DNA of 48,856 bases from Gammaproteobacteria bacterium (GTDB lineage Bacteria > Pseudomonadota > Gammaproteobacteria > DSM-19610): positions 1-48,856 of the forward strand of contig JAPHQV010000051.1 of assembly GCA_026197075.1 (NCBI GenBank), read 5' to 3'. The notes below the pieces were generated by a model that was not told the DNA's origin, made no database searches, and worked only from the letters and a program-made list of their open reading frames with translations. The position numbers and the translations under genes were made by a program. Positions 15,255-20,528 of this stretch are shown here, in pieces. Each line of letters begins with the position of its first letter. Positions within the stretch are counted from its first letter, which is position 1.

Positions 15255-17144
15255 TCACATCGTCCCCTTGATACCCACGTAGAAGTAACGGGCACCCGGA
15301 TCATCGGGCGTGCCACGGAATGCCATGTTGTCGGGCATGTCCCTGTCGAACAGGTTGTCCACCCCACCGAAGAAGCTGAGTGCCGGCGAGAGCTTGTAGT
15401 CGACATGGAGGCTGGCCGTGGTGAAACTGCTGTCATAGGAATCGGCATAGGGCACGGGATCGGCGGCCCAGAAGTCCTTCACATGACGAATCCTGAAGTC
15501 CATGTCCGCTTTTCCGATGCGCCGGCCGACGCCGATGCGGGCCTGCCAGCGCGGACGATCCGCCAGGCGCTCGTCACTGACGGAATCCCTCGCGTCGAGG
15601 TACTCGAGCCCGAAATGGACACGGCTGTCGCTCGTTGGCTTGAAATCCATGCGCAGCTCTGCGCCGCTGATTTCCGCCTTGTCCAGATTCTGGTAGACCA
15701 CTTCCGCAAGGCCGCCCACCAGGTTGCCAGTGGCCTGCGAGGTGATGAGATCCGTCAGTTTCGAGTCATGGACGATGAATTCCACCTGTCCTTTGTCGAA
15801 GTAATGGGTCACGGCACCTTCCGTGGTTCTCGATTCCTCAGGCTCGAGGTTCTCGTTGCCGCGAATAAGGTAGCGGCCACGCACCATGTCCTGCATATAG
15901 AGGTTCAGCAAGGTGGGTGCCTTGAACCCGGTACCCTGGCTGATGCGAAAGGCCCACTTACCGGGTCGCCAGGCCAATGTCGCACGGGGGTTGAAGGCAT
16001 CACCGAAATCGCTGTAGTCATCGTAACGGCCGCCCACTGTCAGTTCGACCCTATCGGAGATGGCCCACTGATCCTGTGCATAGAAATGGCTTATCTCTCG
16101 ATCAACCGGCCTGGATAGCGTGCTGATCTCGACATCGTCGAGACGATAGCCGACGCCGACGTTGGTGAAATGGTTCTCGACCGCCTCCCATGCATAGGAC
16201 AGCTCGGATTGATACTGGTCAAAATCGGTGGTTTCATCCTCCGTCGTGCCACGATTAACGGTTGCGCTGCTGGTACCGTAGCCGAGGTTGAGGTCGAGCG
16301 TCCCGTCGCCCACTGTGCTGGAATAATTGCCACCAACAAAATAACGGGTCTCGCGCTCGAATCGATCATAGGGGTTATCGAACCTGTCCAGGCCAGTGCC
16401 TTCATCATCCTGTTCCACGTATTCCAGCACGAGACCGACCTTCGCGCCGGAGTCTAGCTTGAAACGGCCTCCGTAGTTGAGAAAGAGCCGGTTTTCCTCG
16501 CGCAGATCCGTCTCGATGCTGTCACCGTCAAGGCGAAAGGGCTCGCGATATTTTGCCTCCATACCGATACGATGCGTGCCCCGGGCGCTTGCCCAACTGC
16601 GCGACAGGTGGAGCAAGGCGGTTTCCCTCTGGCCATCATCCGTGGCACCCAGCGTGAGCTTTGCCCGCGTCTCCGGGCGGTCGCCGGCATGGCGCGTTAT
16701 GATGTTGATAACGCCACCAAGAGCATCCGAGCCATACAGCGCCGACATGGGTCCCCGGACGATCTCGATGCGTTCGATATCCTCCAGTGAAATATTGTTG
16801 ACGTTACTGCCCGCGTATTTTTCGGTGCGGCGCATGCCATCCACCAGTATCAGGGTATGGTCGGAGTCGAAACCGCGCAGATTGATTGTTGCACTGCTAC
16901 CGGTATCGCGGATCACCATGCCATTCGCGAATTGCAGGACCTCGGCAATGCTACGGCCGGAGAAGCTCTCGATGGCATTCCTGGAAATAACCTGCACGGA
17001 TGCATTTACATCCTCCACCGGTTGCTCGATCCGTGTCGCGGAAACGATGACTTCCGATAGGACACCGGTCTGGCCATGGGCCATTGGTGTTATGGCAAGG
17101 AGGATGGAGACAAGTTTCGTCTTTTGAAAAGTTGGATTCTTCAT
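15255..17144 (-). CDS. TonB-dependent outer-membrane receptor
   Basis: 629 residues from the ATG giving MKNPTFQKTK. Signal peptide to about residue 25 (PMAHGQ); TonB-box-like SEVIVSATR; plug domain with RGFDSDHTLILVDG and IERIEIVRGPMSALYGSDAL GG; then a 22-strand-type barrel including GNENLEPEESRTTEGA and ending in YFYVGIKGTM. The size and motifs fit the FepA/CirA/BtuB group, which imports siderophores, haem or cobalamin with energy from TonB-ExbBD. The ligand cannot be read from sequence. It lies upstream of the 4Fe-4S membrane protein in an apparent operon, and both are enclosed by the duplicated segment. Confidence 0.9.
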   Translation of the reverse strand: MKNPTFQKTKLVSILLAITPMAHGQTGVLSEVIVSATRIEQPVEDVNASVQVISRNAIESFSGRSIAEVLQFANGMVIRDTGSSATINLRGFDSDHTLILVDGMRRTEKYAGSNVNNISLEDIERIEIVRGPMSALYGSDALGGVINIITRHAGDRPETRAKLTLGATDDGQRETALLHLSRSWASARGTHRIGMEAKYREPFRLDGDSIETDLREENRLFLNYGGRFKLDSGAKVGLVLEYVEQDDEGTGLDRFDNPYDRFERETRYFVGGNYSSTVGDGTLDLNLGYGTSSATVNRGTTEDETTDFDQYQSELSYAWEAVENHFTNVGVGYRLDDVEISTLSRPVDREISHFYAQDQWAISDRVELTVGGRYDDYSDFGDAFNPRATLAWRPGKWAFRISQGTGFKAPTLLNLYMQDMVRGRYLIRGNENLEPEESRTTEGAVTHYFDKGQVEFIVHDSKLTDLITSQATGNLVGGLAEVVYQNLDKAEISGAELRMDFKPTSDSRVHFGLEYLDARDSVSDERLADRPRWQARIGVGRRIGKADMDFRIRHVKDFWAADPVPYADSYDSSFTTASLHVDYKLSPALSFFGGVDNLFDRDMPDNMAFRGTPDDPGARYFYVGIKGTM

Positions 17145-17479
17145 GTGCACTTTATTCTCATGTATGGATTGGCGCAGGAGCTGTACAGCAGGCGGCCATT
17201 GAGCTCATGACGAAATGGTCATGGTTCGCTGTAGATGGTCACGGCGATCTGTCGATTACCGCCCCGGTCACCCATTATGAGATTGCAATTCCCGGGCCAC
17301 TCTTCTCGCCCTAGTATTGCTGGCCTTCCCCACCCTGCTGCGCGGTCTATTGTGTGATTTGCCGCACATGGCAGGGCCATATGCCCCTTATAACTCGATC
17401 AAGGTACTGCAAGGCCCTGTACCTGAATCCCTACGGCAGTACCACCAGCTCCAATGCTTGCACGATAGCCGCGCCGAAC
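17145..17479. other. Upstream region of the TonB receptor
   Basis: No gene is seen. This should hold the promoter and control region of the receptor operon. I compared it by eye with cobalamin-riboswitch consensus blocks and with Fur-box patterns and found no convincing match. Confidence 0.35.
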
Positions 17480-17805: not shown

Positions 17806-18411
17806 TCAATCCGTGGTGGTTAGTCGACGTATTCGGCTGGCATGCATGCCGACGGCGATCAAGAATCCCCCCACTGCGCCGTAGAGATGCGCCTCAGCCA
17901 CCACCGGCACACCGATTAGGGTTTGAGTGGCGCTCGCGGGGCCGAAGCCATGCTCATAGGCGAGTTTCGAACCCAGCATCGCAAGCGCGGCCAGTTGCAC
18001 CCGCTCGCCGGCCAAGACCGCGCGCAATGCGTAATAGGCGAACACACCGTGCAGAACGCCGGAGAAACCAAGGTACCAGACGAGCTCCGGATGCAGCAGC
18101 AACAGCGCGGCACTCACCCACAGCGTCAGCACACCGGTCACCGTGATCAAGGAGGAAGCCGTCGCTTCGCGACGGTAGATCGCCGCAATGATCGCCAATC
18201 CCGCCATATTGAGCGCCCAATGCGCGAAGTTGGCATGCGCGAAGTGCGCCGTCAGCAGGTGCCACCATTGTCCGGAGAGGAGAGATTCGCGTTGGTAGAG
18301 CCAGGCATCATTGCCGGAAACCGTCAACAACGTGGCGAAGAGTGAGACCGCGGATACACCGATGCAGACGAGTGCCAGCCGCAGGCCGGCGCGGTGCGCC
18401 GGTATCAGCAT
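17806..18411 (-). CDS. rrtA: Rhombosortase (rhomboid-family intramembrane serine protease)
   Basis: 201 residues, mostly hydrophobic, with the rhomboid pattern WWHLLTAHFAHANFAHWALN, the catalytic GFSGVLHG (Ser117) and a later His175 (EAHLYGAVGG). Length and motif layout fit rhombosortases, which cleave GlyGly-CTERM sorting signals of exported proteins in the inner membrane. The gene lies directly downstream of a protein that carries such a signal internally (GGGGGALGWMPLLGLALFGL then RRR), on the same strand with a 42-bp gap, the classical arrangement of a dedicated protease with its substrate. A general rhomboid protease is the alternative but is less likely given the neighbour. Confidence 0.88.
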   Translation of the reverse strand: MLIPAHRAGLRLALVCIGVSAVSLFATLLTVSGNDAWLYQRESLLSGQWWHLLTAHFAHANFAHWALNMAGLAIIAAIYRREATASSLITVTGVLTLWVSAALLLLHPELVWYLGFSGVLHGVFAYYALRAVLAGERVQLAALAMLGSKLAYEHGFGPASATQTLIGVPVVAEAHLYGAVGGFLIAVGMHASRIRRLTTTD

Positions 18412-18452
18412 TTTGTGCCATGGAAACGAGTGACGGCCACCTGGCGCATCGC

Positions 18453-20528
18453 TCAGTGATTAAAGATCAGCCCAACAGAATAGACATTTGCTTTATTGTC
18501 GCTGTCAAGGCGGTACTGGTCCCAGCCCAGGCGCGCGGACCAGTGCTCGGAGAAACGGGCCTCCGCACCCAGACCGAACACGGCGTCGGTGCCGCGCCGC
18601 GTGGAGCTCGCAACGGTGTTGTCTGCATTGAGCAGTTCATATTCGGATTTCCACCGCCACAGTCCGGCCCGAGCGAACACGGCGTAACGTTCGGCGAAGG
18701 GATAACGCGCCACCGCGGCCAGTTCGAAGCCCGTACCCGAGATCGGCACGCTTTCATGCACGTCATAGATGTTCACTGGGCCGGTGCCACGCAACCGCGT
18801 GACGATTTCGCCGAGGTCCGTGTAACCGCCTTCAAGTGCCAGGTGGTCGTTGAAGCCATAGCCTCCGAAGACGCGCCAGGCGTTGCGCGTGGCGTCGCTC
18901 ACCTCCGGTGTGCCGACAATACCGCGTGCCGCCAGATCCGCCGTGACCTTGCCGAGATTGACATCGGTGTCCGCGCGACCGAACTGCGCGCCGAAATACA
19001 GACCGGCTTCGGATGCCGATGCGGTGCCGGCGATCGATGCCAGGAGGACCATGCGCGCAAGCATCCCGAGCCGACGGCGCAAGCCGAACAGCGCCAGTCC
19101 GAGGAGCGGCATCCAGCCGAGCGCTCCTCCTCCGCCGCCGCTGGTCACCACCACATCGCCGGCGGGTGTGAATGTCGCCGTCACCGCGCAGGCAGCGCTG
19201 ATCACGCCCGTGGTATATGTACTGCCGGTCAGCGTACCGCCGCAGCCGATGACGCTCTCGATGGCATAGCCGGGATTCGGGGTGACCGTGAAACTGGTTG
19301 TGCCGCCCTGCGTCACCGTGGCATTGCCGGGCGAGATCGAACCGTTCACGCCGGCGCTGGTGCTGACCGTGTGGGTGAGTTCGAACGTCGCCGTGCACGC
19401 CCTGGCCGCGCTGACCATGACCACTGCATTCGCAGAGGTGCCGAAACAATCACCGCTCCAGCCGGTGAACACCGAGCCGGAATCCTCCGTGGCGATCAGC
19501 GTGACCTGCGCGTTCACGGGATAGGCCACATCGCAGATGGCGCCGCAGTTGAGCTGCGTCGCCTGCGACGGCAGCGAACTGGACGTGACCGTGCCCGCGC
19601 CGCTGCCGGCGGTGGACGCGCTCACCTGGAAACCGTCGTTATCGAAATAGATCTGTGCGTTGTCGATGTAATGGTTGTTCGTGGAGCCACCCGTGGAGCC
19701 CGAAAAACCCAGCTTGAAGGTCGCGGGGATCGCCACCTGGCCTGTCAGCGTGTCGATACGAACGGCATTGTGCAACGTGGTCCAGGTCCCGCCATTGTCG
19801 GTGCTAAAGCGCACCGTCACGCATGTGCCGCCGTCGGCGCAGCCGTTGGCGCCGTCACCCCGGCGCACCAGGATGTCGGCCTTGCGCCAGCCGCCGCCGA
19901 GGTTGGCGTCCACGGCACCGCCGAGGTAGCGATAGCCGGTGAGGTTGTTGCCGGAGCCCAGCAGCGCGAAATTATTGGGAATGGGAGCGCCCCCGTTCGC
20001 GGCGGTGCCGTTGGCGTCGCCGAATTCATTGTTGGCGTTGCCGAACAGATCGAAGCCAACGGCGAAGTAGCCGTTCGGTACGCCGGGGATCGTGAAATAA
20101 TTTGTGCCGTAGCCGAGCGTGCCGCCGGACTTGCCGGGCGTCACGTTCTGCTCCGTGCCGTCGACCAGGAAGAAGGCGAGACCGTCAGCGCCGGAGCCAC
20201 CCGCCATGTAGTAGTCGAACACGATCTGTACACCGAGTGATGAGCTGAACGCCTGGTCGTAGACCAATGTGCCGCTCTGGTTTCCGAGGGCTTGCGTGAG
20301 CCGCGCGACCTCGCCGTTGGTCGCGTCAGCCTGGGTAGTGGTGAAGAAATCCGCGTCGCCCTGGACACTCCAGCTGCCGATCGAATTACCGCTCGCGCCA
20401 GTGAAGTCCTGATCCTCGACCAGGGTGGCGGCTTGCGTCAGCCCACTCAGCAGACCAAACAGTGTGGCGGCGAGGATGCGGGTAGTCGCGGAAGGCTGGC
20501 AGGGCGAGCGCAGGCAAGTTGTTGTCAT
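18453..20528 (-). CDS. Lectin-like secreted protein with internal GlyGly-CTERM fused to an outer-membrane beta-barrel
   Basis: 691 residues with GGAG 7 bases before ATG. Order of parts: signal peptide (1-33, ending TQAA); an L-type-lectin-like domain (about 35-300; DGLAFFLVDG, GGTLGYG, GYFAVGFDLFGN); two bacterial repeat domains (about 300-455; VFTGWSGDC, TATFEL, TATFTPAG); a GlyGly-CTERM signal at 464-486 (GGGGG, hydrophobic stretch, RRR); then immediately a second signal-like segment (MLARMVLLASIAGTASASEA, 489-508); and a ~180-residue OmpA-type barrel (GLYFGAQFGRADTD to VYSVGLIFN). GlyGly-CTERM signals normally end a protein. Here the frame runs on, so the gene looks like two proteins joined. 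Cleavage by the neighbouring rhombosortase and by signal peptidase could release both. The alternatives are loss of a stop codon or a sequence error. Confidence 0.85.
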   Translation of the reverse strand: MTTTCLRSPCQPSATTRILAATLFGLLSGLTQAATLVEDQDFTGASGNSIGSWSVQGDADFFTTTQADATNGEVARLTQALGNQSGTLVYDQAFSSSLGVQIVFDYYMAGGSGADGLAFFLVDGTEQNVTPGKSGGTLGYGTNYFTIPGVPNGYFAVGFDLFGNANNEFGDANGTAANGGAPIPNNFALLGSGNNLTGYRYLGGAVDANLGGGWRKADILVRRGDGANGCADGGTCVTVRFSTDNGGTWTTLHNAVRIDTLTGQVAIPATFKLGFSGSTGGSTNNHYIDNAQIYFDNDGFQVSASTAGSGAGTVTSSSLPSQATQLNCGAICDVAYPVNAQVTLIATEDSGSVFTGWSGDCFGTSANAVVMVSAARACTATFELTHTVSTSAGVNGSISPGNATVTQGGTTSFTVTPNPGYAIESVIGCGGTLTGSTYTTGVISAACAVTATFTPAGDVVVTSGGGGGALGWMPLLGLALFGLRRRLGMLARMVLLASIAGTASASEAGLYFGAQFGRADTDVNLGKVTADLAARGIVGTPEVSDATRNAWRVFGGYGFNDHLALEGGYTDLGEIVTRLRGTGPVNIYDVHESVPISGTGFELAAVARYPFAERYAVFARAGLWRWKSEYELLNADNTVASSTRRGTDAVFGLGAEARFSEHWSARLGWDQYRLDSDNKANVYSVGLIFNH

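Follow-up and report, generated by a model that had tools for sequence, protein, structure and literature searches.

The minus-strand gene at positions 18453-20528 of the window, by which we mean the whole 48,856-nucleotide stretch of gammaproteobacterial DNA analysed here, carries a GlyGly-CTERM sorting tag in the middle of its product, followed in the same frame by a second signal segment and an OmpA-type outer-membrane beta-barrel. The fusion is probably a genuine precursor, because this arrangement is shared by 16 or more bacterial families. We think it likely that its product is a polyprotein giving rise to a surface pair, from which a rhombosortase would free the surface protein and signal peptidase I the barrel, the processing itself being inferred. 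The open reading frame is single and uninterrupted (691 aa), without a stop or frame change, and runs in the order signal peptide, L-type-lectin-like domain, InlB-type repeats, GlyGly-CTERM, second hydrophobic segment and barrel. These parts, and the neighbouring rhombosortase gene, are located as follows.

20430..20528, minus strand: N-terminal signal peptide, residues 1-33, read from the sequence as a hydrophobic core followed by small residues, with a predicted cut between TQA and AT
19629..20429, minus strand: L-type-lectin-like passenger domain, residues 34-300 (Pfam below cut-off, PDB lectins, related locus L031)
19164..19628, minus strand: InlB-type (Flg_new_2) repeats, residues 301-455, in two stretches (Pfam PF18998, 1.2e-12)
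19071..19139, minus strand: internal GlyGly-CTERM, residues 464-486 (TIGR03501), consisting of GGGGG, a hydrophobic helix and RRR
19014..19070, minus strand: second internal signal segment LGMLARMVLLASIAGTASA, residues 487-505 (hydropathy and an AxA test with 19 relatives)
18456..19013, minus strand: OmpA-type outer-membrane beta-barrel, residues 506-691 (Pfam; profile match to solved OmpA)
17806..18411, minus strand: rhombosortase gene (TIGR03902), 41 bp downstream of the fusion gene and on the same strand

The GC content at codon position 3 was 0.81 in the lectin part, 0.85 in the repeats, 0.77 from the GlyGly element to the second signal and 0.73 in the barrel. The junction reads as coding because this high third-position GC persists throughout the gene. 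An earlier note on this DNA had described an internal GlyGly-CTERM, a second signal and an OmpA-type barrel in one frame, and this is borne out by the open frame, the tag match (TIGR03501, 16.5 bits) and the Pfam barrel. The junction sequence given in that note corresponds to residues 484-508, RRRLGMLARMVLLASIAGTASASEA, and departs from it only in omitting L487-G488. A 632-aa plus-strand ORF at 18342-20240 was set aside as an antisense reading of the GC-rich fusion gene.

The passenger domain was matched by the Pfam families Lectin_L-type_dom (2.3e-8, 34.6 bits, cut-off 78.3) and Lectin_legB (2.1e-5, 24.6 bits, cut-off 26.3), in both cases under the gathering score, and PDB lectins matched it weakly (E 0.003). 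Since the L-type lectin gathering score is unmet, we call the domain lectin-like only. Its closest lectin relative, at 60% identity, is the protein of locus L031, which runs off its contig before the junction; no barrel was found elsewhere in the L031 genome. A frame change near query residues 116-127 interrupts this relative (L031:4001-5495), which has extra InlB-type repeats where the contig ends. The barrel is better defined. Over residues ~493-691, the Pfam families OMP_b-brl (3.9e-16, 60.2 bits) and OmpA_membrane (5.3e-15, 56.1 bits) exceeded their gathering scores of 28.7 and 21, respectively, and the barrel family profile matched the solved OmpA structure 2k0l (E 3.7e-11). An AlphaFold2 model of residues 455-691 alone had a pLDDT of 39.6 and a pTM of 0.22, values too low to rest any conclusion about structure on.

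The GlyGly-CTERM element, residues 464-486, reads GGGGGALGWMPLLGLALFGLRRR. Its TIGR03501 match, at 19071-19133, meets the curated cut-off of 15.5 bits, by a small excess; as a 60-aa fragment the element scored 14.7 bits. GlyGly-CTERM proteins carry the element at the extreme C-terminus, which is not the case here, as 205 residues follow the Arg cluster. We therefore class the protein as a GlyGly-CTERM variant and not as an ordinary member. Membership of MYXO-CTERM (TIGR03901) was rejected, with 18.3 bits for the fragment against a cut-off of 20 and no invariant Cys in the motif.

The rhombosortase encoded at 17806-18411 on the minus strand scored 137.6 bits with TIGR03902 (cut-off 84), and from its sequence retains the active-site motifs GFSG and AHLYGA. 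Two rhombosortases over the cut-off are encoded in the window genome, a draft of 59 contigs, one of them being that located 41 bp from the fusion gene. Exactly two GlyGly-CTERM matches over the cut-off were found in this genome, each adjoining its own rhombosortase, so that one candidate substrate lies beside each enzyme. The sensitivity of this genome-wide search is limited, because the tags of several relatives score below the TIGR03501 cut-off as fragments. The type II secretin GspD is present (576 bits). The second rhombosortase overlaps the gene of a rhombotarget lipoprotein (TIGR04179, 288.5 bits; G000:C34:258138-259650, L175:2639-4151), the two forming a separate dedicated pair. Like the fusion, this lipoprotein is encoded beside its own rhombosortase, but it has a conventional C-terminal tag, a lipoprotein signal and no barrel. 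The window genome also encodes a paralogue of the barrel as a separate 181-aa protein that starts with a signal peptide (G000:C27:41701-42237, L002). Downstream of the rhombosortase gene and on the same strand lies a BtuB-like TonB-dependent receptor gene (window 15255-17150, minus strand; TIGR01779, 219 bits, under the cut-off).

We scanned 369 genomes from across the Gammaproteobacteria for single frames that combine a GlyGly-type element, a second signal and an outer-membrane barrel. Thirteen genomes from 12 families, the window genome included, had such a fusion, and a wider search added seven, giving 20 genomes in 16 families. The 19 further genomes come from 15 families other than that of the window genome, and include the single-contig chromosomes G589 and G569. 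In addition to these 20, the same in-frame layout was found on two Pseudoalteromonas replicons, those of Pseudoalteromonas sp. CF6-2 (WP_237115682.1, 2867 aa, one RefSeq protein) and P. piscicida 2515 (a 4002-aa frame). The homologues with the same fusion that the earlier note had called for thus exist. A rhombosortase over the cut-off was present in 13/13 fusion genomes of the first search, compared to 128/369 overall (hypergeometric 7e-7, uncorrected for kinship, the 13 spanning 12 families), and in 7/7 of the wider search, which makes 20/20. Outside the Gammaproteobacteria no such layout was seen, with only the stronger matches inspected. The fusion gene was not found in the 19 genomes of the same genus or family that were searched, which leaves the window copy isolated and untraceable in close relatives. 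Most related loci matched only the InlB-type repeats, and the three that were checked (L037, L032 and L075) had no barrel match. The initial criterion for a fused gene, a barrel more than 170 aa from the start of the frame, took in non-fusions; L124, L182, L183, L187, L199 and L200 were rejected on inspection as other layouts or a masked stretch, and L128 as a split pair. In L182, L187 and L199, which belong to other classes of the phylum, apparent SPOR-type domains identified by eye precede a related barrel, without a GlyGly tag.

The passengers of the fusions vary, and include lectin, DUF11, Big/Ig/Calx-beta, tandem-95 repeat and choice-of-anchor U types. The C-terminal parts range from a bare barrel to a barrel with TSP3 and/or OmpA_C (G317, G369 and G589); in G171 (L154:2986-6621) two FecR domains lie between the second signal and the barrel, and in G079 Ig-like domains accompany the barrel, the domains of G079 and G369 having been identified by eye. 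The junction is the constant element across these combinations. In L149, L150, L212 and L216 it is a choice-of-anchor U domain that precedes the internal GlyGly element.

Seven loci have a separate gene, ending in GlyGly-CTERM, directly before a barrel gene. Five of these pairs (G028, G283, G654, G696 and G172) share a 4-nt ATGA stop/start overlap, one has a short gap of about 15 nt (G369, contig C350), and in one the genes lie about 80 nt or more apart (G314). The upstream genes end exactly after the GlyGly element, and an ordinary signal peptide precedes the same barrel in the downstream genes. Of the unfused barrels, about 54 in number, seven belong to such pairs, whereas a tail of this kind occurs in at most 2.8% of ORFs (binomial 8e-4), a control that is loose as it includes chance frames and the pairs themselves. 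The earlier note had held that its reading would be refuted if relatives had two separate genes and the window copy were a lone stop-loss. They do exist, yet they look like the fused module in two-gene form, with the ATGA overlap at the matching point, where a one-base change would yield a fusion. A split in the barrel tree (SH-aLRT 91) places all 14 sampled GlyGly fusions together with the seven split pairs on one side (32 rows), and the 42 rows on the other side are all stand-alone except for one mislabelled masked sequence. Support for the deep branches of this tree is weak (13 of 71 starred), and the profile used for the search had itself been made from fusions. The differing passengers and C-terminal modules suggest, but do not prove, that the fusion arose more than once. 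In G297 (L176:3817-5774), a barrel-plus-OmpA gene is convergent with a rhombosortase gene about 40 bp away, and is unfused.

The split pairs also lend support to a different reading of the fused genes, namely a leaky two-gene operon in which translation from within the frame, at ATG 489 or ATG 493, supplies part or most of the barrel. Both codons exist at the junction of the window fusion, and MLARMVLLASIAGTASASEA is a plausible short signal peptide. As ATG 489 could begin it, the barrel of the window fusion might still be translated separately, and a Shine-Dalgarno-like sequence lies near a possible internal start in G287, G185 and G144. However, neither ATG of the window is preceded by a Shine-Dalgarno sequence, and the junction of G171 contains no ATG, GTG or TTG. 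The sole start codon at the junctions of G097, G369 and G091 sits inside the hydrophobic core, so that four fusions in all have no start codon from which the barrel could be made with a signal peptide of its own. Ribosomes would in any case read through the open upstream frame. We regard internal initiation as an unlikely account of these genes.

A protein that is not processed, or is cut only once, has to be considered as well. Packed against each other, the two hydrophobic segments could form an inner-membrane hairpin holding the lectin part and a periplasmic barrel-like domain, or the rhombosortase alone could cut and leave the barrel tethered, and no processing has been demonstrated that would rule this out. 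The end of the second segment counts against it. In the window fusion it reads ASA, with small residues at -3/-1 and a predicted, as yet unobserved, signal peptidase I cut between ASA and S. An AxA motif is found within the expected stretch in 16/20 fusions, the other four reading VVA, AYS, VNA and SQA, compared to 68/399 (17%) internal helices of multi-spanning ORFs used as controls (binomial 1e-9). Further evidence against it is the ordinary signal peptide before the same barrel in the split homologues. Nor is a tethered OmpA-type barrel known to be able to reach the outer membrane. We therefore judge a hairpin or tethered protein quite improbable.

That the fusion is an assembly artefact or recent stop-loss confined to the window genome, a possibility the earlier note had kept open as a missed stop, may seem conceivable for a 59-contig draft and for genes that a 1-nt change at the ATGA overlap would join, but is largely refuted, and hardly credible, because 19 further genomes hold the fusion, single-contig chromosomes included, and the Pseudoalteromonas fusion is one RefSeq protein. 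It is equally hard to credit that the GlyGly helix is a chance glycine-rich membrane segment without a sorting function: its score is barely over the cut-off and several relatives fall under it as fragments, but a rhombosortase is adjacent in the window and present in all fusion genomes, and the split relatives end right after the same element.

The polyprotein that we favour would be processed as follows. One chain is translated, as the open frame of the window shows and as is forced in the four relatives without a usable internal start. From topology rules and known GlyGly-CTERM biology, the N-terminal signal is expected to direct the lectin part into the Sec pathway, with transfer halted by the GlyGly helix and the Arg cluster left in the cytoplasm. 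The second hydrophobic segment would then re-enter the membrane as an internal signal and export the barrel, which signal peptidase I would release by cutting at ASA; both steps are inferred from the conservation of AxA. By analogy with VesB, the neighbouring rhombosortase would cut within the glycine run; the released lectin part would probably receive a phosphoethanolamine lipid and reach the surface by type II secretion, while BAM presumably folds the barrel into the outer membrane. The two products may remain 1:1 partners, with the lectin adhesin held by its own barrel as in TraA/TraB; this partnership rests on gene association and analogy, and is the least certain step. The lectin part, earlier described as secreted, is thus better described as probably lipid-anchored at the surface, by analogy with VesB. 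The earlier proposal of a two-product polyprotein is favoured by the comparative evidence (recurrence, rhombosortase, AxA), but cleavage into two proteins has not been shown: no experiment demonstrates a cut at either site, and both are inferred from sequence. That rhombosortase tolerates a further helix beyond the Arg cluster is likewise an assumption of this reading, without experimental data.

The known part of this scheme comes from VesB of Vibrio cholerae. The rhombosortase RssP cuts VesB after a glycine at the start of the helix, the new C-terminus gains glycerophosphoethanolamine, and the T2SS carries VesB to the surface (PMC6219818, PMC11389362). The VesB tag lies at the extreme C-terminus with nothing after it, whereas that of the window fusion is internal. 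The tag is reported to act as an independent motif, there too at the C-terminus (PMC13393428), and published accounts of rhombosortase concern only tags that form the very end of the protein (PMC3237569, PMC11389362). The passages of the rhombosortase literature that were searched, which exclude most subscription papers, make no mention of an internal GlyGly-CTERM or a fused barrel.

The closest parallels are found in Myxococcus xanthus. In MXAN_5598, an internal MYXO-CTERM before a barrel was remarked on in passing in 2025, and the authors suggest that genes were fused and that the N-terminal part is processed (PMC11980579). As in the window fusion, a large adhesin region is followed by a mid-protein sorting tag and then an outer-membrane beta-barrel (and an OmpA domain). 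MXAN_5598 differs in having MYXO-CTERM with its Cys and a myxosortase, a glutamate protease, in place of GlyGly-CTERM and rhombosortase; it is also a single case, and a second cut freeing the barrel is not discussed in the accessible text (PMC11980579). The traA gene shares four bases with traB, which lies downstream of it (PMC3325183), and the products of the two genes form 1:1 complexes, TraB consisting of signal peptide, barrel, TSP3 and OmpA (PMC12045341). TraA, like the lectin part, is a surface protein with a lectin-like domain and a C-terminal sorting tag (PMC3325183, PMC12045341). The fusions and split pairs therefore share the plan of TraA/TraB with a different sorting system. TraA/TraB differ in being two genes with another tag and sortase and a function in membrane exchange, and the likeness of the barrel to TraB rests on architecture.

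An internal tag before a barrel has this one precedent, MXAN_5598, and the GlyGly layout is, as far as genome comparison can tell, far more widespread than recognised. GlyGly-CTERM-type tags have been described and searched for as protein ends, and annotation consequently misses or mislabels such fusions; the CF6-2 protein is named only 'Ig-like domain-containing protein' in RefSeq for this reason. It may equally be true or untrue that these genes encode a widespread but so far overlooked class of envelope polyproteins in Gram-negative bacteria. Each would be cut by an intramembrane sorting protease and by signal peptidase I to yield a lipid-anchored surface adhesin and its dedicated outer-membrane barrel at a fixed 1:1 ratio, a rhombosortase counterpart of TraAB that would have arisen several times from ATGA-coupled pairs. 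If the processing is real, rhombosortase would need no free C-terminus, the fused barrel would identify the outer-membrane partner of a rhombosortase substrate, and the question of how such surface proteins are retained and put to use once sorted would become directly testable.
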